Below, one piece after another: positions 3,862 to 22,787 of a DNA stretch of 22,787 nt (the stretch's first letter is position 1; each line of letters opens with the position of its first letter). The stretch is from the IMG/VR virus record IMGVR_UViG_3300035698_025451, positions 1-22,787 of that record; one strand, 5' to 3'. Origin of the DNA: a virus. A model generated the notes under the pieces. That model worked only from the letters and a program-made list of their open reading frames with translations, made no database searches and was not told the DNA's origin. Made by a program: the position numbers and the translations under genes.

Positions 3862-4637
3862 ATTAACTCCCTTTTAATTGTCAAAAACTTACACCACCTA
3901 TTTCTTCTTGCACTATTTTTAGAGTGACAACTTTTACATAATGGAATCAGATTATATTCATTATTATTATATTTATCATAATCTATATGATGAACATCTA
4001 ATTTTTGCTTCAATTCAGATTCCAATATACCACATTCTATACATACATGATTAAATGCTGATCTTATTTTTTCTCTCAGGTCCCTATTAAACCCAGGACC
4101 ATATATTTTATCAGATTTTTTAACCTTCCATGCGGGAGAATTACTTCCCGACAAATATTTACGTTGATATAATATATGACATTTTCTGTTACAAAAATGA
4201 TGTTTTGCTCTTCTCGCAAAATGTTTTGCTACCAGAACATCTTTTCCACACCAATCACATATAAATTTGACCTTACCACCTTTCCAATGAGGATTATTTT
4301 TCCCAAAAAAATTTGTATGATTAAGACTCATTTTTAATTTTGTTTTATCACCGAACTTCTTGCCCGAATTTGCCCCAACCCTACCAAGCCAATAACTTCT
4401 TTCGCCTAACTGAGAATGTTTTTGACAGTATTTTGCATTTTTAGTTATAAGAACATTACATTTTCCATAAATACATCTATTATTAAAAGCCTTTTTCCTT
4501 TCAAACGAATATTTCATACCATATTTAGAAATGCAATCCTTACAAAAACCACCATGTCCATCTTTTCTTTTTCTATTTATATGGAATTTGGTTATATCTT
4601 TTTTCATCCCACATTTATAACATCTTTTAATTAACAC
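3834..4637 (-). CDS. HNH endonuclease with zinc ribbons (homing type)
   Basis: 267 residues from a GTG start whose G is shared with the TAG stop of the tape measure gene; AAGGAG sits about 7 bases upstream, inside that gene. Zinc ligands are visible as C6/C9 with C32/C35, and C127/C130 with C149/C153. 'NPHWKGGK' at 115-122 is a NUMOD3-like DNA-binding motif. The nuclease core at ~188-250 has C199/C202, the catalytic 'DVHHIDYD' (H216/H217), the Asn of 'NEYNLIPLC' and the 'CKSCHSKN' ligands, i.e. a complete HNH. Such genes are free-standing mobile endonucleases in phage genomes; no flanking intron is apparent because both neighbours are intact. Its C-terminus overlaps the next gene start by 28 bases. 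All key residues appear present, so it is probably active. Confidence 0.93.
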   Translation of the reverse strand: MLIKRCYKCGMKKDITKFHINRKRKDGHGGFCKDCISKYGMKYSFERKKAFNNRCIYGKCNVLITKNAKYCQKHSQLGERSYWLGRVGANSGKKFGDKTKLKMSLNHTNFFGKNNPHWKGGKVKFICDWCGKDVLVAKHFARRAKHHFCNRKCHILYQRKYLSGSNSPAWKVKKSDKIYGPGFNRDLREKIRSAFNHVCIECGILESELKQKLDVHHIDYDKYNNNEYNLIPLCKSCHSKNSARRNRWCKFLTIKRELICGALKYII

Positions 4638-9605: not shown

Positions 9606-9659
9606 TAGAGTCCTCCTCCTTTTCTTTTTATTTTACCTTAACTAAAACTTATCTTACTT

Positions 9660-10364
9660 TTACGCTACTTGATAAACTATCCTTATAACAGCTCCGTCTG
9701 TAGGGGCCGTAGTAAATACTATTGATGGATATGTTGGAGATATCCCACCAGAAGCGGAAAATGTATAACCATCTTCAATAACACCTGCTGGGGTTTCAAC
9801 TAACAACACATCTGCAGCATTAACTACATCAGTATCTAAAATCATAAATTCTGTTGTAACTCCGTCTCCCTCCCATTGAATAACCTCAATTTTACCATCA
9901 AAAGCACCAATTAAATCGGCTCCTCCCTCAATAGTAACCGTGGCATTTGCATCTACCGCCATAGGAACAGAAGCTGTTCTTGACTTAAATCCTCCAGCGT
10001 ATTTAGACAGGTTTACTTCCGCCGTATCTGGATCTTTAAACCAGCAAACCGCATTAATAGATTCAAATTCTGTAACAACAAGTCTTTTTGCTGAAGTAGG
10101 ATTTAACCCAGACAACCTTGCTACTTGAACCAAATCTCTAACAAGCAACGTAATACTAACAGAATAACTGGCTGAACCATAAACAATCTTTGTAGCATCA
10201 TAACCTAGCTCTGATACTCTGGTTTCAGATCTTTCCTCTGTAGTATTAAAGTTCTGTGCTCCTCTCAATTTATTTTTTACAGCATATGGTGAACTTCCGT
10301 CCCATACGTATACCTCAATATTTTTCCCCTGATATGCAGCTATGTCATGATCATTAAATGCCAT
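9660..10364 (-). CDS. Major tail (tube) protein with extra C-terminal beta domain
   Basis: 234 residues; ATG with AAAAGGAGG upstream. Residues 1-150 have the length and strand pattern of a tail tube subunit ('KNIEVYVWDG', 'ASYSVSITLLVRDLVQVARL', 'ASVPMAVDANATVTIEGG'). Residues ~163-234 are a separate beta-sandwich module ('DGVTTEFMILDTDVVN', 'VEDGY'-like turn, 'IVFTTAPTDGAVIRIVYQV'), a type often appended to phage structural proteins and probably displayed on the tube surface. The position between the tail terminator and the tail chaperone supports the call. It would polymerise as rings around the tape measure to build a non-contractile tail. Confidence 0.82.
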   Translation of the reverse strand: MAFNDHDIAAYQGKNIEVYVWDGSSPYAVKNKLRGAQNFNTTEERSETRVSELGYDATKIVYGSASYSVSITLLVRDLVQVARLSGLNPTSAKRLVVTEFESINAVCWFKDPDTAEVNLSKYAGGFKSRTASVPMAVDANATVTIEGGADLIGAFDGKIEVIQWEGDGVTTEFMILDTDVVNAADVLLVETPAGVIEDGYTFSASGGISPTYPSIVFTTAPTDGAVIRIVYQVA

Positions 10365-10410
10365 TTTTACTTTCCTCCTTTTATTTTACGCTTTTATTTC
10401 TAATTTCTTA

Positions 10411-10905
10411 TTAGTAATCTTGTAGTAGTGAAACTGAAAAAAACAATCGACCTCTGTTTTCTTCTAATATTCCTGGGCCACTTTTCCTAATTGGAATTGC
10501 GTCGGGTGTCGATACCCTCAAATAACTTAATAGGGGAGTAATCTCTACTACACTATTATAATCCCTGTATGGAATTGAACCTAACTCTAATGCGTCTTTT
10601 ATTATTGACAAAAGAGTTTCTCTTTCTAATTCATTTCTTGCAAATATATCTATCTCAAATTCAACTCTATAATTACATGCTACTCCCATTTCCTCAGATT
10701 TTCGTGCATTATTCCGAGAAAAATCCAAAGCAACTGCTGGCATAGCTATTTCTAAAAAATTCCCTTCATCGTCTATTTTTGGAAAAGCATTCGTAAATTT
10801 CACTTCTCCAGCACCTTCTCCCACTGTATAGTCACTCTCATTTATTTTAGTAGTTAACCAACCATAAACATTCTTTTTTATAAGAGATAGCCTTTTATAA
10901 TCCAT
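10411..10905 (-). CDS. Tail terminator / tail completion protein
   Basis: 164 residues; ATG with AAGGAGT upstream. The N-terminal helix 'YKRLSLIKKNVYGWLTTKINES' followed by strands ('PAVALDFSRNN', 'CNYRVEFEIDIFARNELERETLLSIIKDAL', 'RLFFSVSLL') fits the alpha/beta fold of siphophage tail terminators (gpU-like), which cap the tail end and join it to the neck. It lies directly before the tube gene and after the neck gene, the usual place. No enzymatic motifs. The name is inferred from order and general fold pattern, not from a diagnostic motif. Confidence 0.7.
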   Translation of the reverse strand: MDYKRLSLIKKNVYGWLTTKINESDYTVGEGAGEVKFTNAFPKIDDEGNFLEIAMPAVALDFSRNNARKSEEMGVACNYRVEFEIDIFARNELERETLLSIIKDALELGSIPYRDYNSVVEITPLLSYLRVSTPDAIPIRKSGPGILEENRGRLFFSVSLLQDY

Positions 10906-10929
10906 TTATTACATACTCCTTCTCTTTTA

Positions 10930-11691
10930 TTACAAATGAACTCTGCCCATTAACTTCATTTGAAAACCGTCTTCAAAATCTTTTCTTGCAATTGTTCCTA
11001 AATGCCTTTCTACTTTATCTGCCATATAAGCATGAGTTTTCTTTATAAAATGTATTCCAGATTTATTTGGATGAAATGTCGACTCAAATACACCATAACC
11101 CTCATACCCTGGCCATAATTTCCGATCTGCTGGACTTAAAGGCTTTCCCCAACTTCCTTTACTCGAACCCCAGTATTTTCTAAATTTTGTTATATATGCT
11201 CGCCCACCCCTTGCGGATGAATCTCTCTTGCCAGCCAAAACATGAGCATTTACTGGATACGTCAATTTTTTAAGGCCTGCTATTTGCCAATATCCTTCAT
11301 ATCCACGATCAAGAATATCCCAATACTCAAATAGTCCATCTTCGGTTTTTAGTCTCGACAGGGCCTCTGTTTCTCCAACCCCACGATGAATAGTATAACT
11401 TCCACTAAACCCACCCTGAACTCCACCACCCCTGCCTGATGAAATATTTACAGTTCCTATGCCATGTCCAAGAGCCCGGCTTCGCCGTATAACATCATAC
11501 AGCCCGCCACGGGTTCTTTCTCTAACACCAGCATCATGTAATACTTTCTCACAGTAAACCGCACTATTATGTTGAATTCTGGCAAGCCTTGCATCAATCT
11601 TTTGCATAACTCGTCTTAATGACATATTTGGATTTCTTACATATTTAGAAAACCAATCAGGAACTGTTATGTCAAGCTTCATATTATACAT
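10930..11691 (-). CDS. gp10-like neck / head-tail joining protein
   Basis: 253 residues, longer than most HK97 gp10-like proteins (about 110-160). A helical N-terminus ('RRVMQKIDARLARIQHNSAVYCEKVLHDAGVRERTRGGLYDVI') is followed by a Gly-rich centre (residues ~80-100) and a C-terminal part with 'STFHPNKSGIHFIKKTHAYM', which resembles the end of neck proteins of this kind. The ATG at 11691 starts six bases after the preceding stop and lacks a strong Shine-Dalgarno, so it probably relies on re-initiation; ATG at 11682 is an alternative. The order (connector, this gene, tail terminator) supports a head-tail joining role. The middle ~100 residues are unrecognised. Confidence 0.65.
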   Translation of the reverse strand: MYNMKLDITVPDWFSKYVRNPNMSLRRVMQKIDARLARIQHNSAVYCEKVLHDAGVRERTRGGLYDVIRRSRALGHGIGTVNISSGRGGGVQGGFSGSYTIHRGVGETEALSRLKTEDGLFEYWDILDRGYEGYWQIAGLKKLTYPVNAHVLAGKRDSSARGGRAYITKFRKYWGSSKGSWGKPLSPADRKLWPGYEGYGVFESTFHPNKSGIHFIKKTHAYMADKVERHLGTIARKDFEDGFQMKLMGRVHL

Positions 11692-11697
11692 AATTAG

Positions 11698-12024
11698 TTA
11701 TGTCTCTTTTTTTTCTTCTTCTTCTCTTTTCAGTTCTTCTCTTACCTTGGGACTAAGTTTTATTATAGATTTAATCCCAACAATTTCAACCTCTTTGAAA
11801 AAAAGTTCAAGCATTCCAAGTAAATCGTTACCTCGATCAAGTAATTTTTTCCTAATTTTCTTAAATGCCTCTTCTTTATCTTCAGTTGTAAAGTTAACAA
11901 CTTTACCACTAACAACATCAAGTTCGTCAAGAACATCCTTAAACAAATAGTTCATTCGTCGTCTTAACTGATCATAAATGTTTTTCCCTATTCCATCTGG
12001 AATATCAATTTTTTTATCATCCAT
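11698..12024 (-). CDS. Small helical protein of the head-tail module, unknown
   Basis: 108 residues; ATG with AAAAGGAGG nine bases upstream, a strong site supporting translation. The sequence is almost wholly helical and highly charged ('IYDQLRRRMNYLFKDVLDELD', 'DKEEAFKKIRKKLLDRGNDLLGMLELFFKE') and ends in a Glu/Lys-rich tail. No membrane segment and no motif I recognise. It sits between the zinc-ribbon connector gene and the neck gene, so it is probably a structural or assembly protein of the neck. I do not assign a function. Confidence 0.7.
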   Translation of the reverse strand: MDDKKIDIPDGIGKNIYDQLRRRMNYLFKDVLDELDVVSGKVVNFTTEDKEEAFKKIRKKLLDRGNDLLGMLELFFKEVEIVGIKSIIKLSPKVREELKREEEEKKET

Positions 12025-12041
12025 CCTTGTCCTCCTTTTAT

Positions 12042-12524
12042 TTAATCTTTGTATACCCTGCTACATGAAACTGCTATTTCCGATTTTAATGTGTCTATAA
12101 CAATCTTTTGTGGGATAACCTCTATTGAGTCACTTATTGGGGTAATATCTCCCCCAAGTGGATCTATGTCTATCCGTGTCTCATATTTAATCGTATTTTC
12201 GAAAAAACTTCGAGATTCTATTCGTGCTATCAAAACACAATCTCCCACCTGCAGATTGCCTATTACTATTTCTTCTTCTACTGCTTCAGCTATCCATCTT
12301 ACTTTTACATATTCATTGTGAACTGTTGTGGCATAAATCCAATATTTCCCACCACAATAAGAACAATTTGGATCCCGGGAAACTTTGTATTGAGAATCGT
12401 AAGAACAGTGACTACAACCCGTTGGATTATCCGCCAAGACTGAAATGTTTATCTGCTGTCCAAATTTTATTCTATTTTCAGATTCCTTTCTTTTTATATG
12501 ACTTAATCTTTTTTCAAGTGCCAT
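12042..12524 (-). CDS. Zinc-ribbon head-tail connector (stopper-like) protein
   Basis: 160 residues. The ATG follows directly on the TAG stop of the adaptor gene, without a good Shine-Dalgarno, implying coupled translation. A rubredoxin-like zinc ribbon is formed by C37/C40 and C54/C57 ('CSHCSYDSQYKVSRDPNCSYCGG'-like spacing). The rest is beta-rich ('YVKVRWIAEAVEEEIVIGNLQVGDCVLIAR'). Small proteins with such a four-cysteine ribbon occur just after the adaptor in many siphophages, where the stopper protein closes the head. The role is inferred from position and this pattern. Confidence 0.65.
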   Translation of the reverse strand: MALEKRLSHIKRKESENRIKFGQQINISVLADNPTGCSHCSYDSQYKVSRDPNCSYCGGKYWIYATTVHNEYVKVRWIAEAVEEEIVIGNLQVGDCVLIARIESRSFFENTIKYETRIDIDPLGGDITPISDSIEVIPQKIVIDTLKSEIAVSCSRVYKD

Positions 12525-13163
12525 CTAAAATATCCCAAAATAAACTTTACCCAAACCAATTTTCTGTGTTAATTCTTCTATTTCTTGGTCTAGCCCTTTA
12601 ATTAAACCACTATAAGGCATGCCACCAGCATAACTCACAGAATAATCTTTTTCTTTTTCTGCCGTAGCTCCCTTGGCCTCATATGCCCCCGCCGCCCATA
12701 AAACTTTTTTACAGACCATATAAAATGCCAATGATTGAGCAGCATTATATTCATTAATATCTCCATATGAATATACAATTATTACATTCTGTAAATCATC
12801 TACTGAAAATGTAAGGGCTGCTGTTGCGTCCTCTGTCAAAGCAGAACCCACTAATGATACTTTTCCCGACTCTGCATAAAAAACATAATCAGATTCGTCT
12901 ATAAGAATATCATCAATGGTTACGCTCTCTATGGAAATTATCGGAGTATTGTTTAAAATCATGTCCGCAGTTCCATCTCCGTCCCGTACCTCTGTAATTT
13001 CTGTAGCAACAAACTTCTTTCTTGATAATTGTTCTATTTTACTTTCTGCTAATTCAAAATAAAAATCAATATCAACATCTTCAACAATATCAGAAGAAAC
13101 CCTGGTTAAATTTCTTACTCTAGTTATTAACTCATTGTCGCTAAAAATTGGAGTAATTTCCAT
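12525..13163 (-). CDS. Head-tail adaptor (gp6-like connector)
   Basis: 212 residues; ATG preceded by GGGAGATAGGAA. N-terminal helices ('ELITRVRNLTRVSSDIVEDVDIDFYFELAESKIEQLSRKKF') and C-terminal helices ('AAQSLAFYMVCKKVLWAAG', 'IKGLDQEIEELTQKIG') surround a beta module (residues ~60-135, 'DMILNNTPIISIESVTIDD', 'VIIVYSYGD'). This helix-beta-helix plan and the place right after the capsid gene fit the gp6/gp15-type adaptor ring that binds under the portal. The call is by architecture and order. Confidence 0.75.
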   Translation of the reverse strand: MEITPIFSDNELITRVRNLTRVSSDIVEDVDIDFYFELAESKIEQLSRKKFVATEITEVRDGDGTADMILNNTPIISIESVTIDDILIDESDYVFYAESGKVSLVGSALTEDATAALTFSVDDLQNVIIVYSYGDINEYNAAQSLAFYMVCKKVLWAAGAYEAKGATAEKEKDYSVSYAGGMPYSGLIKGLDQEIEELTQKIGLGKVYFGIF

Positions 13164-13178
13164 TTCCTATCTCCCAAT

Positions 13179-13204
13179 GGGACGATAACAAATGTTACCG
13201 CCCC
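13179..13204 (-). other. Stable intergenic RNA hairpin after the capsid gene
   Basis: On the minus-strand transcript an 11-base-pair stem (GGGGCGGUAAC against GUUAUCGUCCC, two G-U pairs) closes an AUUU loop, 23 bases after the capsid stop and 16 before the next ATG. No U-run follows, so it is not an ordinary intrinsic terminator. It could stabilise or separate capsid mRNA from the downstream message. Confidence 0.55.
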
Positions 13205-13227
13205 AAATTCTATTATAACAAAAAAGA

Positions 13228-14151
13228 CTACGCAATAGGACCAACGTTCTTGATCATTACTTGTCTTTCTTTTGCTTTAACCGCAATTGCTTCATACAGT
13301 TTTACCCTAAATGCCATACCGTCTCCAGTATAAGGCACATCTTCGTAACTCACGTTTTGAACAGTAGGAACCACAATTTGAGATGTGTCAAGAACCATCG
13401 CAAAAGATGTATTTGTCTCAGGAGTTACACCATAAGCCAAATTAGTTGGAATGAACTGGGTTGATAAAACTCTAATTCCTTGATAATATGTTACAACTGT
13501 TCCAAGAGCTTGATCCACTCTTTCCCAGTTGAAAATCATTTTATCCCTCATATAACCATTTAAACTTTGCTTATCCCTTGACGAAACCACAATAAGATCA
13601 ACCTTTCCGCCATTATCCTGGATGGTTCTTATTGATAAATCAAGAGCGTCACATCCATTGTCTGATCCAAGATCAGAACCAGCTAAATCAACGAATTGAT
13701 CTACCTGGGCAGCTATTCCGTCAAAACCATCAGCGTCTGTATAAGCAGCACTATAATTTCCCATAACTAATGCTCTTTCCTCTGCTTGCGATAATGATTC
13801 CGTTGCTCCTTCAATTTCTGCCTGTAATGCATCAATATATCCACCAGTTGTTTTCTGTAACAGGTTAGAAACTTGACCTTCTGCTTTTATCATGCAGATG
13901 GGTGCGGTCCGTCTTGCGTATGTTGAATTCCCAGATGAGAATGTATCAGATTCATTATAGAATCCGGCACTTGTTAGTGCAGTCCTTACATTCCATTGAT
14001 ACGAATTTGTATTCCAAGGAATTCTCTTTAACAGCGTTCTCAGCGGGGTTACTCTATCAGCAAGTTCTATAAGAACAGGATCTAATTTTTCAGGGATTAT
14101 TGTCCCTTCACCCTCGGCAGTTGTTAATGCTTTATAAATATCTAAACTCAT
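13228..14151 (-). CDS. Major capsid protein (HK97 fold)
   Basis: 307 residues; ATG with AAAAAGGAG upstream. It follows the protease/scaffold gene and precedes the adaptor. The sequence has the usual course of an HK97-type capsid protein without its delta domain: an N-terminal arm, 'VTPLRTLLKRIPWNTNSYQWNV', a long spine helix region ('GGYIDALQAEIEGATESLSQAEERALVMG'), an A-domain with 'VDLIVVSSRDKQSLNGYM', and a C-terminal strand 'DGMAFRVKLYEAIAVKAKERQVMIKNV'. The scaffold function appears to sit in the preceding gene. Hundreds of copies would build the icosahedral head. Confidence 0.88.
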   Translation of the reverse strand: MSLDIYKALTTAEGEGTIIPEKLDPVLIELADRVTPLRTLLKRIPWNTNSYQWNVRTALTSAGFYNESDTFSSGNSTYARRTAPICMIKAEGQVSNLLQKTTGGYIDALQAEIEGATESLSQAEERALVMGNYSAAYTDADGFDGIAAQVDQFVDLAGSDLGSDNGCDALDLSIRTIQDNGGKVDLIVVSSRDKQSLNGYMRDKMIFNWERVDQALGTVVTYYQGIRVLSTQFIPTNLAYGVTPETNTSFAMVLDTSQIVVPTVQNVSYEDVPYTGDGMAFRVKLYEAIAVKAKERQVMIKNVGPIA

Positions 14152-14183
14152 TCTTTACTCCTTTTTAATTTTTATTCAACTTT

Positions 14184-15074
14184 TTAGTTGGCTTTCCTAT
14201 CCTTTAATCTTAATTGAAGATTAAGTTTTTTCCCTAGGTCGAGCCCATTATAAGCTTCAAGTGCTTCTTTCTTTAGATCTTCTTTATCTTTTTCTGGGTC
14301 GACTGAAAATCCTTTTCTTTGTGTTTGAGGGATCTCGCTAATAATTTCTTCAATAATCCCCTTTAAGTTATCCTTGCTATTACTGTCTTCCAAACTGGCT
14401 AAACGAGTATTTACACTTTCCATAGTTTCTTTTATCTCATCAAGTGCTTTAACTTGGTCAGATTTTTCTTCTACTTTCTTTTCTTCGATTTTTTCCTCGG
14501 TCTTTTCTTCTTCTTTCTTTTCCTCGGTTTTCTTATCTTCTTTCTCTTCTTCCTTGATTATATTATTGTCAATATAATTTTTAATTTTGCTCATAACTTC
14601 TATTTCTTTTTTATCGCTTGTTGCTTTTATTGAATCATCCAGAACACCAGACATAGATCTTAATTCTGTCTGTTCTTTCTCAATTTCTTCGTCGGATTTC
14701 TTTTCCTCGGTTTTCTCTTCAGTTTTTTCCTCTTTTTCTTCAACTTTCTTTTCTTCCTTCTCTTCCTTTTTCTCTTCTACTTTCTTTTCTTCAGTTTTTT
14801 CCTCGGTCTTTTCTTCGGCCTTTTTATCTTCAACAGATTTTTCTTCTTTTTCTTCTTTTTTATCTTCCGTTTTCTCTTCTGTCTTTTCCTCGGTCTTTTC
14901 CTCTTTCTTCTCTTCTGTCTTTTCCTCGGGTTTTTCCTCTTCTTTCTTCTCTTCGATCTTTTCTTCGGTCTTTTCTTCTTCTTTCTTTTCCTCGGTTTTC
15001 TTATCTTCTTTCTCTTCAACAGATTTTTCAGCTTCAGTCTCTTTTCCTTTATCTTTTTCGGTTACTTCACTCAT
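14184..15074 (-). CDS. Nested scaffolding protein from internal in-frame start
   Basis: An ATG at 15074 (codon 178 of the protease) is in frame and preceded by AAGGAGG at 15085-15091 with a 10-base gap, as good as any gene start in this operon. The product would be 296 residues ('MSEVTEKDKGKETEAEKS...') containing only the Glu/Lys-rich segment and the C-terminal helical part. Lambda C/Nu3 uses the same arrangement: a scaffold nested in frame inside the protease gene. No other scaffold gene is apparent between portal and capsid, which supports the idea. Translation from this start is inferred. Confidence 0.6.
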   Translation of the reverse strand: MSEVTEKDKGKETEAEKSVEEKEDKKTEEKKEEEKTEEKIEEKKEEEKPEEKTEEKKEEKTEEKTEEKTEDKKEEKEEKSVEDKKAEEKTEEKTEEKKVEEKKEEKEEKKVEEKEEKTEEKTEEKKSDEEIEKEQTELRSMSGVLDDSIKATSDKKEIEVMSKIKNYIDNNIIKEEEKEDKKTEEKKEEEKTEEKIEEKKVEEKSDQVKALDEIKETMESVNTRLASLEDSNSKDNLKGIIEEIISEIPQTQRKGFSVDPEKDKEDLKKEALEAYNGLDLGKKLNLQLRLKDRKAN

Positions 15075-15605
15075 CTCTATGTTTCCTCCTTTTTCTGCAA
15101 TTTCTAATGATTTTGTTACATACCATCGTATAGATTTTGCTTCAGGATTCATAGGTACAGTAACCAGGGAAGCCTCGAGCAATACCATTTTTTTGATGAA
15201 CTTTACAACTTTCTTAACAGCAGCCACAAATTCTTTCTTAATTTCAAGAACACGAATTCTAACAGAAAACTTGTTAATAACCTCTTCTGTTATCTTTTGC
15301 CATATTTCCTCAACATCATTTGCTGCGGAAATCAATACTTTTATAAACAGTCCTCTTTTATCAAGTTTTGACTTTACAACTTTACCAATCGGAAAGTCTA
15401 GATTGTGATTATAAAGAACAGTTGAATTTCTTTCAAGATCTTTTTCTGACGCTTTAAATGCTTCATCGGTAATAACATCACCAGCTAAATCAAAGTCACC
15501 TGTGGCACAATATCCTTCAATAAATCTCTCACCACTCTTTTCTTGATATTTTTTAACGATGTCAACGGGAAAGCGAAACGTTACTGCGTTTAACTTATCA
15601 GCCAT
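14184..15605 (-). CDS. Prohead protease fused to Glu/Lys-rich scaffold-like tail
   Basis: 473 residues from ATG at 15605. This start is chosen over the longer reading from 15644 because AAGGAGG lies 9-10 bases upstream and it falls one base after the previous stop. Residues ~1-175 match the caudoviral prohead serine protease family (U35/HK97 gp4): 'GYCATGDFDLAGDVITDEAF', catalytic His67 in 'LYNHNLDFPIGKV', Ser114 in 'NKFSVRIRV', and Glu144 in 'LLEASLVTVPMNPEA'. Residues ~190-410 are an extreme Glu/Lys/Thr low-complexity stretch with an internal duplication, then a helical C-terminus with coiled-coil character. The protease would cleave scaffold and capsid arms during head maturation. An internal start can release the tail as free scaffold. 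Confidence 0.87.
   Translation of the reverse strand: MADKLNAVTFRFPVDIVKKYQEKSGERFIEGYCATGDFDLAGDVITDEAFKASEKDLERNSTVLYNHNLDFPIGKVVKSKLDKRGLFIKVLISAANDVEEIWQKITEEVINKFSVRIRVLEIKKEFVAAVKKVVKFIKKMVLLEASLVTVPMNPEAKSIRWYVTKSLEIAEKGGNIEMSEVTEKDKGKETEAEKSVEEKEDKKTEEKKEEEKTEEKIEEKKEEEKPEEKTEEKKEEKTEEKTEEKTEDKKEEKEEKSVEDKKAEEKTEEKTEEKKVEEKKEEKEEKKVEEKEEKTEEKTEEKKSDEEIEKEQTELRSMSGVLDDSIKATSDKKEIEVMSKIKNYIDNNIIKEEEKEDKKTEEKKEEEKTEEKIEEKKVEEKSDQVKALDEIKETMESVNTRLASLEDSNSKDNLKGIIEEIISEIPQTQRKGFSVDPEKDKEDLKKEALEAYNGLDLGKKLNLQLRLKDRKAN
14498..14549. repeat. 52-bp direct repeat, copy 1 (pairs with 14966-15017)
   Basis: Identical over 52 bases to 14966-15017, offset 468. Both lie in the Glu/Lys-rich part of the protease/scaffold gene and encode the same peptide block (KEDKKTEEKKEEEKTE). 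It probably reflects internal duplication or slippage, and could recombine to change the length of the tail in steps of 156 codons. Confidence 0.85.
14966..15017. repeat. 52-bp direct repeat, copy 2 (pairs with 14498-14549)
   Basis: Second identical copy, in the same reading frame as the first (468 is divisible by three). It lies near the N-terminal end of the Glu/Lys-rich region. Confidence 0.85.
15085..15091 (-). promoter_or_regulatory. Internal Shine-Dalgarno AAGGAGG inside protease gene
   Basis: Seven matched bases to the anti-SD, encoding Lys-Gly-Gly in the protease frame (residues just after the protease domain) and lying 10 bases before the in-frame ATG at 15074. It decides the nested scaffold start. 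Confidence 0.6.
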
Positions 15606-15606
15606 C

Positions 15607-16674
15607 TTATTTTCCCTCCTTTTTACTATTTTCTTTCTTTTCATATAAAATTATATCACAGTCTCTATTCTCATCTGTTTTTTTATTCTCTTCGTTTTCA
15701 TCATCATTATCTTCCACTTCTTTCGTTAAATCAGAATTTTCCAAATGCGAATATCCTTTTGATATTAATTCGTCTCCAATCCTTTCATGATATCCCCTGA
15801 TATCTTCTTGGTTAAGGCTTTTACCAAAAACATCAAGAATTTCTACTCCATTTTCCATGGCACCCCATACTTCATGAATTAAAGCGTGCTCATATAATAA
15901 ATCCTCAGAAGCTTTTAATGTAATATCTTCCTCGGTATTTAATTTTACTTGTATAACAGGATTATCTTTGTCAGCAATAAATTTTGGGGATCCTTTTTTA
16001 AACATCTGAAACCCCCTGGGCTTTCTATATTTTAATGGCTCTTTAAAACGAATATATGACCATATGTAATAAACATATAATGTTTCCGCTTTTGGCCACC
16101 ATCTTTGTCGTTCATCATCCGATATATGATGAAGCCATTCATATTCTTTAAACTGACTTAATCCAAGTTCCCTTGGTTCATCATCTATTATATAAATTCC
16201 ATATACCCTATCTGAACATAACCAAAGAAGTTCCTCGGTATGTTTCTTTAATTTAACCGACTTAACCATAACATGGGATGTTCTTCCCCAAATATTTTCC
16301 GCATATGGAGGAGATAAATATAACATCCAGTTAGGCGGTGCATCCTCAAATCGTTCTGACAACCAACCCTTTAAAATATCTTCCGATTTTTCCTCCATCG
16401 TTTCTACGTCTTTTTTATGTTCTTTTATCCATGCTCTTGCTCTAGCAACTGTCCATTTGTCCTTTTCAAAAAGATAACTTTGAACTACCATACTTCCTTC
16501 TTTTTCTGCTGAGGACTTTTTTAATTTCCCCATTATCGCTTTTATGCCTTTTTTGGCAGAAATGGTTACTGTTCTAAAAGTTCCTTTCTTAAATAATTTT
16601 GGGTCTTTCATTCTAAATCTAATATAATTTTCAGTTATATCGGGAGAAGGTTTAAGTATGTCCTGCTCGTTCAT
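15607..16674 (-). CDS. Head-module protein of uncertain role between portal and protease
   Basis: 355 residues; ATG with AAGGAGG five bases upstream, located inside the 37-residue ORF before it. Residues ~18-90 contain a block I recall from other phage head-module proteins ('GTFRTVTISAKKGIKAIMGK' and 'VVQSYLFEKDKWTVARARAW'). Residues ~110-225 form a separate Trp/Tyr-rich domain ('NWMLYLSPPYAENIWGRTSH', 'LLWLCSDRVYGIYIID', 'RQRWWPKAETLYVYYIW') that looks like a compact beta fold, possibly nucleic-acid related, but I cannot place it. The C-terminal ~50 residues are acidic and Asn/Lys-rich. It ends one base before the protease start. It could be a minor capsid or internal head protein, or a putative protease relative (XkdF-like by position). 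Confidence 0.6.
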   Translation of the reverse strand: MNEQDILKPSPDITENYIRFRMKDPKLFKKGTFRTVTISAKKGIKAIMGKLKKSSAEKEGSMVVQSYLFEKDKWTVARARAWIKEHKKDVETMEEKSEDILKGWLSERFEDAPPNWMLYLSPPYAENIWGRTSHVMVKSVKLKKHTEELLWLCSDRVYGIYIIDDEPRELGLSQFKEYEWLHHISDDERQRWWPKAETLYVYYIWSYIRFKEPLKYRKPRGFQMFKKGSPKFIADKDNPVIQVKLNTEEDITLKASEDLLYEHALIHEVWGAMENGVEILDVFGKSLNQEDIRGYHERIGDELISKGYSHLENSDLTKEVEDNDDENEENKKTDENRDCDIILYEKKENSKKEGK

Positions 16675-16784
16675 AAAATCCTCCTTAAGGAATTGTAAGA
16701 TAATACTATTAATAATCTACTCAATTCACATAAGTATTGCCAATCAAGTGCGGCCATTACTACAATAAGTTCTGATATCTCCAT
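16671..16784 (-). CDS. 37-residue ORF with strong ribosome-binding site
   Basis: ATG at 16784 preceded by AAAAGGAGG five bases upstream. Its TGA stop overlaps the ATG of the next gene (ATGA), and the Shine-Dalgarno of that gene is encoded in its last codons. The peptide begins MEISELIVVMAALDWQ and continues Leu-rich, ending in SLRRIL; it is probably one amphipathic helix. It may be a true small protein or mainly a device that couples translation into the 355-residue gene. Unrecognised. Confidence 0.55.
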   Translation of the reverse strand: MEISELIVVMAALDWQYLCELSRLLIVLSYNSLRRIL

Positions 16785-16796
16785 TACTTCCTCCTT

Positions 16797-16859
16797 TTAT
16801 ACTACTGCAATTAATAGAACAACCACTTGAAATAATACTATAAATACCATCTTAATCAT
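16797..16859 (-). CDS. 20-residue hydrophobic ORF overlapping the portal stop
   Basis: An ATG at 16859 overlaps the end of the portal gene (stop at 16852-16854) and runs for 20 codons of nearly pure Val/Ile/Leu/Phe, followed by TAA. It would be a single membrane-spanning peptide. The upstream site is only GAAGAA, so initiation would depend on the terminating portal ribosomes. Evidence for translation is thin; it is recorded because position and composition are suggestive. Confidence 0.3.
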   Translation of the reverse strand: MIKMVFIVLFQVVVLLIAVV

Positions 16860-18306
16860 TTTCTTCATTATTCGATCCCAGTTTTTGCTTTTTCTTTTTT
16901 TTCTTTATTTTCTGATTAGTAATTACCCCTATTTCCTCTTTCTTCTTCTTTTTACCCGTTTCCTCTGGTAACGTCGCTAATCCAGCATTTGAGAACGGAA
17001 TTATTGGTCTATCACCCCATTCAACACGATGTAGTCCCCTTGTTGCTCTAACTTCATTAACCGTCCTTATTTGGTTTTTAAGGTCCCGTTCGTCCTGTTC
17101 AACAACAAACGCCGCATCTAATGAATCAACGGGATTAAAGTTAAATGTTAATTTTATACCAGGAAATAAGTTTTTAATAATTTTTCTATTTATTCTCGAT
17201 TCTGCAATTTGTTGTAACGGTTTTACCGCTAAAGTCTTAAATAACGCAATTTGCTGTTCAGGAGAATTTCCCTGTGTTTCAACCATCCCTGCTATAAAAG
17301 GCATAACCCCATATTGTGTCACAATTTCTGTTTTAATGTTCTTTGAATAATCTTGGAATTCCTCGTCATTTGTTAATGATATCGGAGTAACCTTTACCCC
17401 GCCACCTGTAACAAGATTCTTATGAGGATTACCTTTTAAATCTTTTTCAGCTTTAGTAATAAATGCTTTTACATCTTCTTCTTTTGCATTTGGTCCTAAA
17501 TCTATGTGAAGTCTTGGAGTAGCATTATTTTCAAAGAATTTAGCATTATACACTGTTGCATATATATACGCTGCTATAATATTCTTTAGTGTTGCTCCTG
17601 GGGCCAACCCATAATTTTCATCAAGCGGTGAAGATAGTTTATAGTGTATTACTTCTTCTGGAGAAAATATAATTTCTTTGGTCCCTACCTTTTGTGTATA
17701 TCCCTCAACTTTTCCTTTTGCGTCAACATTTATCTTAATCGTTTGAGGATTAAGTCTATATAATTCATATGGAAATGCTATTTTGTATGGATCAAATCGT
17801 CTGTCGTTAATTTGATTTCTAAATTTAATAAACGATATCTCGTCTGTAACAATTTCTTGATATGCATCCCCATATGTTAATAGATCTAAAAACACATCCC
17901 TTAACAGGTCTTTAAATTCATCATCGGCATTTGGTTCGTCAAAAAATCTATGCAGAATTAATACATGCCTGTCATTAATTTCCTCGCCTCGCCATGGAAT
18001 AAAGTGATATCCTCCAACTGTTGATGCTTTAGCAATTATGTCTATCGCTTTTCTAGATGGAGTTGAATTCTCATAATACTTTCTAAGCAAAAAGTTTTTA
18101 GACACATCACGAGATTTTTCTCCAGGACCACTTAAATCAAGAGAACCTACCGTTGGGGCATAACTCTTTTTTATGTCCTGAGCACCCATCCCGGATTTCA
18201 TTCCACTAACTTCTTTGACAATGGCTTTTATCTGTGTTTTCGTAATTCCAGTAGATCTTCTTTTCGTTTTTCGTTTCTTTGTTACTGTTTTTTTCGTTTC
18301 TTCCAT
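16852..18306 (-). CDS. Portal protein
   Basis: 484 residues; ATG with GGAGG four bases upstream. Follows the large terminase by 15 bases. The core resembles HK97/SPP1-type portals: 'STPSRKAIDIIAKASTVGGYHF', 'LLTYGDAYQEIVTDE', 'ELYRLNPQTIKINVDAKG', 'IIFSPEEVIHYKLSSP', 'YGLAPGATLKNIIAAY', then the crown-side region 'TVNEVRATRGLHRVEWGDRPI'. Both ends are Lys-rich ('KKTVTKKRKTKRR' and 'KKKKKKQKLG'). It would form the dodecameric ring at one capsid vertex through which DNA is packaged and ejected. Confidence 0.9.
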   Translation of the reverse strand: MEETKKTVTKKRKTKRRSTGITKTQIKAIVKEVSGMKSGMGAQDIKKSYAPTVGSLDLSGPGEKSRDVSKNFLLRKYYENSTPSRKAIDIIAKASTVGGYHFIPWRGEEINDRHVLILHRFFDEPNADDEFKDLLRDVFLDLLTYGDAYQEIVTDEISFIKFRNQINDRRFDPYKIAFPYELYRLNPQTIKINVDAKGKVEGYTQKVGTKEIIFSPEEVIHYKLSSPLDENYGLAPGATLKNIIAAYIYATVYNAKFFENNATPRLHIDLGPNAKEEDVKAFITKAEKDLKGNPHKNLVTGGGVKVTPISLTNDEEFQDYSKNIKTEIVTQYGVMPFIAGMVETQGNSPEQQIALFKTLAVKPLQQIAESRINRKIIKNLFPGIKLTFNFNPVDSLDAAFVVEQDERDLKNQIRTVNEVRATRGLHRVEWGDRPIIPFSNAGLATLPEETGKKKKKEEIGVITNQKIKKKKKKQKLGSNNEEND

Positions 18307-18321
18307 TTTTCCTCCAATCCC

Positions 18322-19773
18322 TTATAATTCCACCGTTCCAAAACATGGTCTATTCCCTACGGCTTTTATTACTCTTGATGCATCTATTATCCATGGTGCT
18401 ACTGCATAAGCCCTCATCATCGCTAAATTATGATCTGGATTTTCATTATATACATAAGTACCGTCAGAAACTTTCATTTGTGTGCTTTCCTGTACTTCTA
18501 TCTCAATTTGTAAATCATTTTTTGAAAATTTAATCGTATTGTCTTCAAATCTTTCTTGTAGTTTTAATGTTGAGAAAAATTTAACTTTTTCCGTGATGTC
18601 TTTTCCCTGATCGTCTTCCGCCGTCTTTACTCTGCCACCAAAATTTACAGCTACAGGAACATATGATTTCTTTGGAAATAATCTCTCGTCACTTAAATCT
18701 AAACATATTGATCTTCCAGGACCTCCAGCATCTACCGCAACAAATCCAGCATTATAGAATTTCGCAAGTTCATTATAAAATGTAGCCTGTTTTGAATAAC
18801 TTACCTTTCTAAGAATCAATTTTTGAATTAATGTGGAAATACCATCTCTTCTGGCCCATATCCCTATTATTGACGGATCGGGGTCATATCCTGCATCCCC
18901 AGATAATTCTATTACAGAGTTAAGTGGAGGATTAACAAGTCTTAATCTTTCTATTCTCAAATCAACTTCAGGCCCTTCAAGTATTAGAGGATCATAATCT
19001 GCTACTTCAATTAAACATTTTCTCCAATGTCTTTCAGGAAATGTTAAATGGGCCATGCTTCCCCAATCAGCTCGAATCTGATTAATCCAGCCTTGAGAAT
19101 TCTCTCCCCCGTAAATTCTTCTTAATCTTGAGGCTATCTTCTCATTCCACGTAGGATCTTTCCATTTTTCTATCTTGTATTGCTTAAAATCGGGGTCCAC
19201 CGTACATTTGTAGAGATATGAATCTCTTACTCCATTAGGAACCCCAAATATCTTCATAATACAATCAGGATTAATACAACCTTGTAATTGCGTAGTTGCC
19301 GCAGGCATATATAATTGCCCTTCATCAACCCATAAAAAGTCAACATGGAGCCCTAATAATGTCTGGCCTCCGCTGGTACCCGCTATCCTGCCATGTAACT
19401 TGAACCCATTCCTAAATTGAATAAAATATTCCGGGGATCTAATAACTCTATTTGCCGATTTTCTTAATAAGACACTTCCATACATCCTCTGTAAAATTTT
19501 CTCAAATAATGGTTTTAGATGTGGTGCGTTTGGAGCTGTTATAAGTCCCTCTTTCCCAGGATTGTGTCTGGCTGTATAAAGGACATCAGACTCTATCAGA
19601 ATTGATTTCCCAACTCCACGAGCTGAGGCACAACAAATATGTTCTTTATCTTCAAGAAGCATATCTTCTTGATACGACCTTGCTGGCCAAGGAAATAAAT
19701 AAGCAAAAAAGTCTACTGGGTTAAAATAACTCTCTCCAAGTATCTTTTCCCCTTCAAATACTTTAAGTGCCAT
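18322..19773 (-). CDS. terL: Terminase large subunit
   Basis: 483 residues; ATG with AAGGAG upstream, overlapping the end of the small subunit gene by 11 bases. N-terminal packaging ATPase: Walker A 'SARGVGKS' at 50-57, Walker B 'FLWVDEG' at 146-152 with Asp150/Glu151, and a coupling segment 'FGVPNGVRDS' at 176-185. C-terminal RNase H-like nuclease: Asp293 in 'LSGDAGYDPDPS', Asp348 in 'VAVDAGGPG', and a probable third acid in 'NPDHNLAMM'. All expected motifs are present and the length is normal, so it should be functional. It cuts concatemeric DNA and pumps it through the portal. Confidence 0.96.
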   Translation of the reverse strand: MALKVFEGEKILGESYFNPVDFFAYLFPWPARSYQEDMLLEDKEHICCASARGVGKSILIESDVLYTARHNPGKEGLITAPNAPHLKPLFEKILQRMYGSVLLRKSANRVIRSPEYFIQFRNGFKLHGRIAGTSGGQTLLGLHVDFLWVDEGQLYMPAATTQLQGCINPDCIMKIFGVPNGVRDSYLYKCTVDPDFKQYKIEKWKDPTWNEKIASRLRRIYGGENSQGWINQIRADWGSMAHLTFPERHWRKCLIEVADYDPLILEGPEVDLRIERLRLVNPPLNSVIELSGDAGYDPDPSIIGIWARRDGISTLIQKLILRKVSYSKQATFYNELAKFYNAGFVAVDAGGPGRSICLDLSDERLFPKKSYVPVAVNFGGRVKTAEDDQGKDITEKVKFFSTLKLQERFEDNTIKFSKNDLQIEIEVQESTQMKVSDGTYVYNENPDHNLAMMRAYAVAPWIIDASRVIKAVGNRPCFGTVEL

Positions 19774-20512
19774 TTGTTTCTCCTTCTATCGGAGTAACAC
19801 TTACCAGGGCACTTATATTCTCGGCTTTCTTGATTTTTTCCCAATCGGGATTTTCCCGGGTTTCTACGTTTTTGGATCCACAATGCTTACATTTCCAAAC
19901 AAATCTGTCCATATTATCTGACCGATACTTTTTAAACCGTGCAATTACTTTTTCAATTGCCCCTTCTACGGTTTCATCTTCAGTTCGGTCAATTCGTTGG
20001 TCTCTTGTGATCCCAAGATTTTGCTGAACCTTAACCATCGCATCACTTATATTTATCAGACTTTTTATGAGTCTTGGTTCGTTCTTCCATAAACTCATTT
20101 TTTCCAATCGTTTTGCTTCTATTGTAAGTTGGAGGAATATTTTGAGAAGATCAAGTTCTGCCCCACTAAAATCGTAATTTTTGAGCAACTGATCTCTCCG
20201 TCCCTCGTAAAATAATTTTTCTTGTTCTGAAACTACTGGAAATACATCCCCGCCAGGTGCGTCTACATAACCAAATATTCCTTCTTCTAAATCTACTTTT
20301 TTCTTAACTAGTTTCTTTTTACCCTTTGGTGCGGCCACAACTTTTTTTAGGTTTTCAGCTTTTTTAGCCTTTCCGCAGGTTTTACAATATTTGTTTGGGG
20401 GCCTTCCGGGTTTTCGTTTAATTTTGAATTCTTCACATTCCAAACATTTGAATCGCCCAGCCCCATCTTTCTCTCTTTCCATACCACCAATTGTAACCTT
20501 AAAATTATCCAT
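19763..20512 (-). CDS. Probable terminase small subunit with zinc ribbons and AT-hook-like motif
   Basis: 249 residues from ATG at 20512. This is preferred to GTG at 20518, because AGGAG overlaps that GTG and is correctly spaced (5-6 bases) for the ATG. N-terminal four-cysteine zinc ribbon (C23/C26 and C43/C46) encloses an AT-hook-like 'KRKPGRPP'. Next is a Lys-rich linker, a helical centre ('ELDLLKIFLQLTIEAKRLEK', 'LINISDAMVKVQQNLG'), and a C-terminal CxxC (C208/C211, 'WKCKHCGSKN'). It lies directly before terL and overlaps it, which is the main ground for the name. It would recognise the packaging site. It is larger and richer in zinc motifs than typical small terminases. Confidence 0.72.
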   Translation of the reverse strand: MDNFKVTIGGMEREKDGAGRFKCLECEEFKIKRKPGRPPNKYCKTCGKAKKAENLKKVVAAPKGKKKLVKKKVDLEEGIFGYVDAPGGDVFPVVSEQEKLFYEGRRDQLLKNYDFSGAELDLLKIFLQLTIEAKRLEKMSLWKNEPRLIKSLINISDAMVKVQQNLGITRDQRIDRTEDETVEGAIEKVIARFKKYRSDNMDRFVWKCKHCGSKNVETRENPDWEKIKKAENISALVSVTPIEGETNGT

Positions 20513-20518
20513 TTCCAC

Positions 20519-20815
20519 TCCTGTGCTTCTCCCAGTATTATATTTTAACTTACTTAACTCATGTGTTTGAGGTAGGGAAAGGGTATAGGAAAAATTTAGT
20601 TTTAGTTCTTAGTAACGCTCTCGGTCCTTACACAGCACTGCCGTTCAAAACCAAAAGATATCCACGGAACCTTACTCCTACTTCGGCAATTGTAACCTTT
20701 TTCAGAGCGTAATACACGTTATGTCAAACTACACACAACTTGTCATGCTGTTTCCAGCTTTCTAATTATCGGTAATCCTATTATAGTCCCATACGGTAAG
20801 TCTTATATACATCAG
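20519..20815. other. Non-coding stretch between small terminase and tRNA
   Basis: No ORF longer than about 17 codons fits a ribosome-binding site on either strand. A perfect minus-strand TATAAT at 20537-20542 lacks a -35 element, and a perfect minus-strand TTGACA at 20722-20727 lacks a good -10. The packaging (cos/pac) site often lies near the terminase genes and could be here, but I see no diagnostic pattern. Confidence 0.5.
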
Positions 20816-20888
20816 TGGAAGAAACAGAACTCGAATCTGCAACCCCCTGCTTGCAAGGCAGGTACTCTCCCAATTGAGCTACTCCCCC
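20816..20888 (-). tRNA. tRNA-Ala, anticodon UGC
   Basis: 73 bases that fold into a complete cloverleaf: acceptor GGGGGAG with TTCTTCC, D-arm GCTC/GAGT, anticodon stem CCTGC/GCAGG with loop CTTGCAA (anticodon TGC), five-base variable loop GGGTT, T-arm GCAGA/TCTGT with loop TTCGAGT, and discriminator A73. The G3-U70 pair that identifies alanine tRNA is present. CCA is not encoded, so the host must add it. It is transcribed in the same direction as the virion operon. Confidence 0.95.
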
Positions 20889-20905
20889 ACTCATGTATAC
20901 TCTTA

Positions 20906-20936
20906 ACTATACAATCCTTTGTAAATTTTAATACAA
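20906..20936 (-). promoter_or_regulatory. Weak candidate promoter for the tRNA
   Basis: On the minus strand TTGTAT (20931-20936) and TATAGT (20906-20911) are separated by 19 bases, a little long, and the -10 ends about 17 bases before the tRNA. The placement is right and the match is moderate. Confidence 0.3.
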
Positions 20937-21032
20937 CTTCTTGTATCATTTCCCCTTATGCCACTACATATTGCGTATAGGTCCCTACTTATAGAGAAAC
21001 ATAATGCAATAACGTTGATAAATTTAATCACA

Positions 21033-21044
21033 TACCGACGATAT
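21033..21044 (+). repeat. 12-bp repeat TACCGACGATAT, copy 1
   Basis: Exact match to 21490-21501 and 21511-21522. This copy lies at the left side of the AT-rich repeat zone; the other two lie at its right side, so the copies bracket it. Confidence 0.8.
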
Positions 21045-21167
21045 TTTGCTTTATAAAATTCCAAAAAAACTTAGGGGCAATTTAGAAGATTTTGGCTGAA
21101 CAATATATATTACTTGATTTCAAAATTTTTTATTTTAGGATCCCAAACAATCAAAATTTCAAATATA

Positions 21168-21182
21168 ACTCTAAATTAGAGT
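21168..21182. repeat. Palindrome ACTCTAA-A-TTAGAGT
   Basis: Perfect 7-base arms around one base. Related CTCTAAT/GTCTAAT sequences recur at 21196-21204, 21338-21346 and 21363-21370, so it belongs to the repeat family of this zone. Confidence 0.7.
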
Positions 21183-21189
21183 ACTTCTT

Positions 21190-21204
21190 TAGATAGAGTC
21201 TAAT
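21190..21204 (+). repeat. 15-bp direct repeat (14/15 match with 21332-21346)
   Basis: TAGATAGAGTCTAAT here against TAGATAGGGTCTAAT at 21332-21346, 142 bases apart, both inside the AT-rich zone. Confidence 0.65.
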
Positions 21205-21403
21205 TTATAATATTAAGTCTTGTCTTTAAGTAAAAGATCTTGACTTATAAAAGCTTTAATTTAATAAAGACTTTGATCTTAATAACTGCTTCTATCTTAA
21301 AGGCAGGTCTTTATTTTTATGTCTTCTACTATAGATAGGGTCTAATATAACATATAAAGGGTGACTCTAATAAAATAAAAGCCTTTGTTAACATGAAGCT
21401 TCT

Positions 21404-21454
21404 ATTTAATAAAAGCTTTAATATAATAAAAGCTTTAATATAATAAAAGCTTTA
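21404..21454 (+). repeat. Three tandem 17-bp iteron-like repeats
   Basis: Units at 21404-21420, 21421-21437 and 21438-21454. Units 2 and 3 are identical (ATATAATAAAAGCTTTA) and unit 1 differs by one base. Each contains TAAAAGCTTTA, itself nearly palindromic. Diverged relatives occur upstream (e.g. 21247-21259 and 21371-21387). The setting, AT-rich and non-coding, is that of a replication origin with iterons. Confidence 0.85.
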
Positions 21455-21489
21455 TTGTAGTCGAAAATGTCGCAAATTCTATCTAGTTT

Positions 21490-21522
21490 TACCGACGATA
21501 TGTTTCGTTCTACCGACGATAT
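21490..21522 (+). repeat. Two copies of TACCGACGATAT spaced 21 bp
   Basis: Copies at 21490-21501 and 21511-21522 start 21 bases apart, two turns of the helix, so a protein pair would sit on the same face. A third copy is at 21033-21044. They are GC-richer than their surroundings. Confidence 0.8.
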
Positions 21523-21663
21523 ATTAACCTCTTGTTTCTTGCTACCTTGCCTGCTTTTGGCTCTATCTGCCTCATATCTCCCCCCAAAAAATCCGCTACC
21601 AAAAAGCCTTGTTATACATAAGCAGTAAGCCTTGGCCTTGATAGATTAAAAGTCTTATCCCCT

Positions 21664-21734
21664 ATCGGGTATAAATAGCCCTTAATCCTCTCTTCGGCCC
21701 TTCAATATGAGCATATTATATCAGATCGGGTATA
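21664..21734 (+). repeat. 10-bp repeat ATCGGGTATA, two copies
   Basis: Exact copies at 21664-21673 and 21725-21734, 61 bases apart. Short, so weak evidence for function. Confidence 0.4.
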
Positions 21735-22085
21735 GCATAAACTAGGGTTGTTACAATTGCTCTGTAATGCTTGTTTTTTGCCCTTAATTAATTATTCGAG
21801 TAATGCTACCAGTTTCTAGGGAGGGGCTTAAAAACCCCACAAAACACGCCACCATAGGCATTCTGTGGCAGGTACCATCCAGTCTTCCCAAATATAAATA
21901 TGTGACCTCACTCCAGTTTGTCTAAATTCCTCATAACGTTATTGAAACCTCACTGTCTATACACACCCGAAGAAAAATAACAATGTTGCATTTTCTATTT
22001 TTTAACTCATAAACCATTTAGGTAAACTTTTTAAACAGTCTTAGCGTTTATAGTCGACAGCACGGGCTGGGAATATAATAAAAAT

Positions 22086-22357
22086 GTGACATAATTCACC
22101 TCCCCCCCCTATGTGAATTAAAGTCACAGTATCGTCGACAAAAGTGACATGTTTCAATAACATACATTATTGAAACAAGGAATGTGAAGAAATCGCACAT
22201 TTATTTATACAGAATATTTTTTTAATGAGTGTGAAATAAGTCACGTGAATTCGTATTGTGAAATAAGTCACAGTTCCGATTTTGGGGTCAGAGTTAATTG
22301 TGTCACTTCCTCGTCGACAAACGTATAGTGAATAAAAGTCACGTGTCGAGATGTCAC
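22086..22357. promoter_or_regulatory. Cluster of GTGA-N6/7-TCAC palindromes (Crp/Fnr-like operator array)
   Basis: Full palindromes at 22086-22099, 22113-22127, 22231-22244, 22258-22271 and 22328-22342, a degenerate one at 22184-22198 (right arm GCAC), and extra half-sites at 22144, 22245, 22303 and 22354. 22257-22272 reads TGTGAAATAAGTCACA, an exact fit to the CRP consensus TGTGA-N6-TCACA. The array ends about 80 bases before the -35 of the rightward promoter. It probably binds a dimeric regulator, host or phage encoded, controlling the early operon; a role in origin function is the alternative. Confidence 0.7.
22150..22177. repeat. Perfect 11-bp-arm palindrome with 6-base centre
   Basis: Arms TGTTTCAATAA and TTATTGAAACA around CATACA. 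The right arm core TTATTGAAAC also occurs alone at 21939-21948. No T-run follows, so it is more likely a protein-binding site or cruciform than a terminator. Confidence 0.75.
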
Positions 22358-22437
22358 ATTATATTCTTGGCGTAAAAAAGAAAAATAATCGACGACGACG
22401 AAGTGATGGATATGCTATTGAGATTGAAAAATACCGC

Positions 22438-22466
22438 TTGACATACTGGGATTCCTGTGGTATAAT
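22438..22466 (+). promoter_or_regulatory. Consensus sigma-70/sigma-A promoter with extended -10
   Basis: TTGACA at 22438-22443, spacer of exactly 17, TATAAT at 22461-22466, with TGG just before the -10 (extended TGn element). Transcription should start near 22473 and run rightward into the gene at the right edge. Confidence 0.9.
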
Positions 22467-22613
22467 TGATTATATAGTAATAGTAATAAAATAGAGAAGG
22501 AGAGAGGAGCAGGTTCGATGATTAGATATAATAGTCAAGACGGGAATAGAGGGGAGGTGATAAATTTAACATTGACCAGTAGCATAAAAAACTTTAATAA
22601 AAAGGAGAAGAGT

Positions 22614-22787
22614 ATGAGCGGATTAAATGTTGTTGATAATGGAGTGAAGTTGAACAAGGCAGTCAGGTCAAGTGGGAGCACAGGAAAGAGTTATGCATGC
22701 GACCTTGCTCATGAGTTATTGGGAATATTGCCGAATTTGGTGGCAATTAAAAAAGAGCATACCGAGGAGGGTGAATTCGGGCAGACA
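22614..22787 (+). CDS. First gene of the rightward operon, unknown (3' end beyond window)
   Basis: Open from ATG at 22614 to the window end (58 codons). AAAGGAG lies 6 bases before it. The same frame is open back to an ATG at 22518, which also has AGAGGAG at a good distance (8 bases), so the protein may be 32 residues longer. The visible part (MSGLNVVDNGVKLNKAVRSS, then 'CDLAHELLGILPNLVAIKKE') has no motif I recognise. It is the first gene behind the consensus promoter and runs opposite to the virion operon, so it is probably an early gene for replication, host takeover or regulation. Confidence 0.7.
   Translation, partial: MSGLNVVDNGVKLNKAVRSSGSTGKSYACDLAHELLGILPNLVAIKKEHTEEGEFGQT

Follow-up and report, generated by a model that had tools for sequence, protein, structure and literature searches.

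A dense array of GTGA-N6/7-TCAC palindromes occupies 272 bp of non-coding DNA in a phage genome fragment, the 22,787-base IMG/VR virus record IMGVR_UViG_3300035698_025451, which is referred to throughout as the window. Comparison with other viral sequences suggests that the array is more likely an assembly site for the phage's own DNA-binding protein than a switch read by host CRP, and it is most economically read as a place where a winged-helix protein encoded by the phage forms a nucleoprotein complex. Tentatively, the array is proposed to be the multi-protein assembly site of such a protein, most likely a replication initiator, and the surrounding hub to be a replication origin. Dense 'CRP sites' in a phage invite a reading in terms of host-state sensing, and the survey reported here finds this half-site in wide use within the replication-initiator genes of phages.

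The non-coding hub and its palindromes

From its left end, the window carries a leftward structural module that encodes a tape measure protein, capsid (phrog_212), protease, portal (phrog_12) and large terminase (phrog_2). Between this module and the rightward early gene lies a non-coding hub of 1.63 kb; the landmarks in and around it are as follows.

18322 to 19773, minus strand: gene for the large terminase (phrog_2, E 1.3e-21), within the leftward structural module
20815 to 20888, minus strand: tRNA-Ala(TGC), the left border of the non-coding hub
22438 to 22466, plus strand: perfect sigma-70 promoter, TTGACA-N17-TATAAT, with TG before the -10 element (extended -10)
22615 to 22787, plus strand: first early gene, truncated where the contig stops; the ATG at 22518 is an alternative start, and the Shine-Dalgarno sequence AAGGAG precedes 22615

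No ORF of at least 60 codons, and no convincing shorter one, is present at 20889-22517, and no ORF of at least 50 codons spans the array. The contig ends approximately 270 bp into the early gene, for which no family match was found. The tRNA is the sole match to RNA families, and a search of the hub for intrinsic terminators returned one weak minus-strand match that is not above chance. The window's genes have strong Shine-Dalgarno sequences and prefer AGA and ATA codons, a combination that fits a low-G+C Gram-positive or similar host. Among 14 genes tallied at 3433-20518, the stop codons are TAA (10) and TAG (4), and the absence of TGA could be chance or a hint of host codon use. An HNH endonuclease gene lies between tail genes (3834-4637), and is probably a homing-type insertion.

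An exact pattern search of the window, together with a search for degenerate copies, gives the following sites.

22086 to 22099, plus strand: full site 1, GTGACATAATTCAC (N6)
22113 to 22127, minus strand: full site 2, GTGACTTTAATTCAC (N7, minus-strand reading), 27 bp after site 1
22144 to 22157, plus strand: degenerate site, GTGACATGTTTCAA, one mismatch to GTGACWTNNTTCAC
22184 to 22198, minus strand: degenerate site, GTGCGATTTCTTCAC (N7)
22231 to 22244, minus strand: full site 3, GTGACTTATTTCAC (N6)
22258 to 22271, minus strand: full site 4, GTGACTTATTTCAC (N6), identical to site 3 and 27 bp after it
22293 to 22306, minus strand: degenerate site, GTGACACAATTAAC
22328 to 22342, minus strand: full site 5, GTGACTTTTATTCAC (N7)
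22343 to 22357, minus strand: degenerate site, GTGACATCTCGACAC

The five full palindromes span 22086-22342, with degenerate copies extending the array to 22357, and no further GTGA-N6/7-TCAC copy is found elsewhere in the window, for which shuffling predicts 0.15 (N6) and 0.12 (N7) sites overall. Dinucleotide shuffling of this 272-base stretch, repeated 5,000 times, gave on average 0.028 full palindromes and at most 2, and GTGA/TCAC half-sites number 15 here as compared to 5 or fewer in any equal-sized segment to the left. Steps between sites are mostly 27-46 bp, a start-to-start distance of 27 bp being shared by the two close pairs (22086/22113 and 22231/22258), and the gaps are filled by the four degenerate copies, each of which is one or two mismatches from GTGACWTN(2-3)TTCAC. 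With its flanks, site 4 forms a perfect TGTGA-N6-TCACA (22257-22272), and two more sites are one mismatch off. A directional heterotypic motif, with one GTGAC half and one GTGAA half in 5/5 sites, was also considered, but would arise by random pairing with a probability of 0.13 and is thus not claimed.

The first-pass annotation of this DNA had described five full palindromes, one of them a perfect TGTGA-N6-TCACA, together with extra half-sites, as an array far beyond chance upstream of the early promoter, and all of these statements hold. It had counted a single degenerate palindrome where there are four, and had seen an alternation of 6- and 7-base spacers; both spacers are indeed present, but in a mixed order (6,7,6,6,7). 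The mixture, which had appeared odd for a rigid dimer, is less so when the half-site centres are considered, as their separation of 10 or 11 bp approximates a single turn of the helix, such that one dimer may be able to read both spacers.

In addition to the palindromes, the hub contains a second motif and several other elements, as follows.

22124 to 22137, plus strand: composite motif TCAC-N5-CGTCG, copy 1
22303 to 22316, plus strand: composite motif TCAC-N5-CGTCG, copy 2
22393 to 22406, minus strand: composite motif TCAC-N5-CGTCG, copy 3, inverted, between the array and the promoter
21036 to 21044, plus strand: CGACGATAT, of the CGTCG family, copy 1 of 3 (other copies at 21493 and 21514)
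22150 to 22177, no strand assigned: perfect 11-bp inverted repeat TGTTTCAATAA-N6-TTATTGAAACA, inside the array
22197 to 22230, no strand assigned: A+T-rich tract (85%) of 34 bp, between the array halves
21396 to 21455, plus strand: A+T-rich repeats of 17 bp in tandem (AAGCTTTAATATAATAA), lying leftward in the hub where G+C is 24-26%

The TCAC-N5-CGTCG motif, which had been overlooked in the first-pass annotation, is locked to the palindrome array, with three copies in or beside it against a mean of 0.0017 and a maximum of 1 in 3,000 shuffles. Within the non-coding hub as a whole, CGTCG/CGACG occurs 8 times as compared to 0.53 expected from hub shuffles, a 15-fold excess. The 11-bp inverted repeat had likewise been overlooked; the sequence TTATTGAAAC is present three times, twice as the perfect inverted repeat within the array and once at 21939. 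The sequence ATTGAAAC is also a common CRISPR repeat end.

Two motif families locked together (TCAC-N5-CGTCG) at a single non-coding location might be taken for a partition (centromere) site recognised by a ParB-type protein of a plasmid-like, persisting phage, and the ParB protein of phage P1 recognises motifs of two types. Against such a partition site, neither a ParA nor a ParB gene is visible in the window, so that any such genes would lie past the contig end, and no parS-like 16-mer is found at three or fewer mismatches. This is the least probable of the readings considered and a very unlikely one. Searches with Fnr, LexA and parS consensus sequences gave no convincing match.

The 34-bp tract inside the array may possibly be an unwinding element, with the 24-26% G+C stretch 600 bp away as a second A+T-rich candidate, in a background that is itself A+T-rich. 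The G+C skew changes sign at the array, but gene direction also flips there, and the two are hence confounded. No DnaA box better than 8/9 is present in the window.

The early promoter and the CRP code

With an estimated transcription start at approximately 22473, the full sites are centred at approximately -138 to -380, and the nearest degenerate site at approximately -123. The closest array site is approximately 80 bp from the -35 element, so that none overlaps or occludes the promoter, and none occupies an activating or occluding CRP position. The early promoter is a perfect consensus and needs no activator.

These positions bear directly on the proposal, made in the first-pass annotation, that a host Crp/Fnr-type regulator binds the array and so couples the phage's expression to the condition of its host. 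In favour of this proposal, the array has one perfect TGTGA-N6-TCACA and two sites at one mismatch, viral contigs ranging from 32-68% G+C contain this half-site again and again, and repression of phage T1 promoters by host CRP provides a precedent (PMC6737242). Three of the window's sites, including the perfect one, have the N6 spacer, but the remaining two of five are N7, whereas all 222 sites in 53 non-redundant N6 arrays of other viruses are N6, without a single N7 site. Activation of the early promoter by host CRP is unlikely, because the sites are far upstream and outside the usual CRP activation positions, the promoter is activator-independent, and two of five sites have the wrong spacer. 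As an activator of this promoter, a host regulator finds no support here, and in its wider form the host-regulator reading, which is ranked third, is quite unlikely.

A layout more in keeping with CRP-like activation is found in a 113-kb contig (IMGVR_UViG_3300032331_001766, hereafter G001), whose portal protein is 27% identical to that of the window. G001 has seven GTGA-N6-TCAC sites (16365-22211; loci L022 and L023), all within 6 kb of early genes, and four of them lie, as judged by eye, approximately 70-85 bp before likely early promoter starts, as in class I CRP activation. The G001 sites may represent a phage early regulon read by a host CRP/GlxR-type protein; theirs is the expected look of CRP-like activation, and the window is unlike it.

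The arrangement in G001 can also be counted in favour of a second-ranked reading, which is possible but doubtful, namely that the array consists of operators for a phage-encoded regulator (repressor or activator) that would act from a distance on the early and late operons, which are divergent, through DNA looping or by covering the hub. The array's position between divergent operons, upstream of the only perfect promoter, is consistent with such operators, as are the focal non-coding N6 arrays found in other phages in hubs beside terminase genes. On the other hand, the promoter is not overlapped, no site is near any other promoter of the window, as a phage regulon would require, and the second, phased motif is left unexplained.

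GTGA palindrome arrays in other viruses

Scans of IMG/VR with the terminase, capsid and portal found no close relatives of the window, and genome contigs yielded no close relative of the terminase. Searches by tblastn against phages, and with the terminase against plasmids, gave either no match or distant matches of at most approximately 28% identity, and the early gene gave no tblastn match. A distant portal alignment identified 80 viral and 3 genome loci which, together with earlier portal matches and two annotated phage stretches, make up 88 loci (1.1 Mb), and in none of these did the screen find more than a single site within 300 bp. Since no close relative is present in the collections searched, direct footprinting is impossible, and pattern scans of the whole collection were used instead. 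A literature search of incomplete coverage found no description of such arrays in phages.

In the case of the N7 spacer, at least 120 IMG/VR stretches have three sites in a row. Among the matches listed, 73 of 80 clusters examined are inside a coding gene, usually about one third along it, and the array steps are mostly 21-24 or 45 bp (54% at 20-25 bp). Among the 33 such genes scanned from the matches listed, 29 match a PHROG annotated as 'replication initiation protein' and 24 an 'O-like' PHROG, with 21 matching Pfam HTH_36 and 7 HTH_Crp_2. The GTGA-N7-TCAC iterons inside O-like initiator genes (loci L202-L281) are also the source of a pairing between protein helix and iteron. Initiators with RETVxR, the helix through which CRP recognises DNA, have TGTGA iterons (outer T in 37/50 half-sites), whereas those with a [RK]RSV helix have RGTGAA iterons (outer A or G in 100/104), an apparent protein-DNA recognition rule for phage origins. 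Some phage initiators thus carry CRP's recognition helix, and CRP-looking palindromes in phages are frequently initiator iterons. Because initiators with a CRP-like helix have TGTGA iterons, the 'CRP code' does not imply CRP. In the window, the outer position is T in 6/10 half-sites of the full palindromes.

For the N6 spacer, three sites in a row were found in 67 stretches, as compared to 27 for the reversed control AGTG-N6-CACT, a weak contrast given that many control stretches are palindrome arrays of another code or coding repeats. Diverse non-coding clusters with at least four sites are the better comparison (37 versus 4), and neither contrast proves CRP. The control pattern also recovered a recurrent palindrome array, TAGTGAGTACTCACTA and variants, that is non-coding in many contigs (L175-L201, for instance L198 and L189). 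Most of the N6 arrays lie outside coding genes, and the majority of contigs searched have them at a single place or at two that adjoin. Dense non-coding TGTGA-N6-TCACA arrays of up to 9 plus 5 sites are present in the unrelated contigs of L117, L128, L154, L138, L139, L135 and L129. Some adjoin terminase genes, L135 and L127 being upstream of the small terminase, and L139, L117 and relatives beside the large terminase. In L135, an A+T-rich stretch between terminase and array, followed by a rightward small gene, reproduces the window's layout without sequence similarity. Proteins with HTH_36 or a Crp-type helix are encoded in only a minority of N6-array contigs, two of the genes lying, by eye, near a DnaC-like loader, and are far from the array where they can be placed.

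An origin is ranked first because this is the role of GTGA palindrome arrays in the one class where the genes reveal what the arrays do, and because the sites ignore the promoter. Counted in its favour are the focal 272-bp site, the N7 arrays in initiator genes, the change in skew, the distance from the promoter, and the outer T beside the TGTGA iterons of RETVxR-type initiators. Counted against it are the lack of a visible initiator gene, the non-coding location, the steps wider than the 21-24 bp of O-type iterons, the imperfect DnaA boxes, the confounding of skew with strand, the closer resemblance of the array to non-coding N6 arrays, and the small share of N6-array contigs with HTH_36 or Crp-type proteins. 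The first-pass annotation had also suggested a phage protein using the same code and an origin or partition complex; the former is now the favoured class of protein, O-like initiators of phages having CRP-like helices and GTGA palindromes as iterons, and the latter is favoured as the putative function.

Were the array an origin, each palindrome would bind one dimer of the phage winged-helix protein, and several dimers, on five strong and about four weak sites, would assemble next to one another, wrapping or bending the DNA. Opening could then occur at the A+T-rich tract inside the array or at the A+T-rich repeats to its left, while the strong promoter beside the array would support early transcription without an activator. 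Both the binding protein's identity and the origin function are what we infer from these comparisons. A fuller proposal, held with considerable doubt, is that of an origin or control complex combining a CRP-like code, mixed 6/7 spacers, the phased CGTCG motif and a winged-helix protein of the phage with the same recognition helix as CRP. Such a complex would belong to a wide class of non-coding GTGA arrays, as yet undescribed, each of which marks the one control point of its phage genome.

Comparison with known systems

Lambda-type origins consist of arrays of inverted-repeat iterons and an A+T-rich tract, with the iterons located within the O gene (PMC7466680). The window shares with them tandem inverted-repeat sites, a nearby early promoter and perhaps the A+T-rich tract. 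Elsewhere among phages, lambda-type origins have GTGA-N7-TCAC iterons that are placed within the initiator gene and recur with a 21-24 bp period, whereas the window's array is non-coding, has the wider steps given above, mixes 6- and 7-base spacers, includes a second motif and has no visible initiator gene.

CRP/Fnr regulon sites share the GTGA half-site and the single perfect TGTGA-N6-TCACA, but the window differs in its spacer mixture, number of sites and distance from the promoter. Operator arrays of other phages, among them the stoperators of mycobacteriophages, are comparable in that a single phage has a repressor site in many copies; stoperators lie dispersed across the genome, whereas the window has one cluster. 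The non-coding TGTGA-N6-TCACA arrays are similarly focal, frequently have steps of 26-42 bp and in some cases lie beside terminase genes, but are strictly N6.

For uncultured phages, these comparisons provide a testable rule to distinguish an origin from a regulatory array, with spacer 7 inside an initiator gene on the one hand and spacer 6 in a non-coding hub on the other. The window's array stands between the two classes, being non-coding, focal and widely spaced like the N6 arrays, while carrying two N7 sites.
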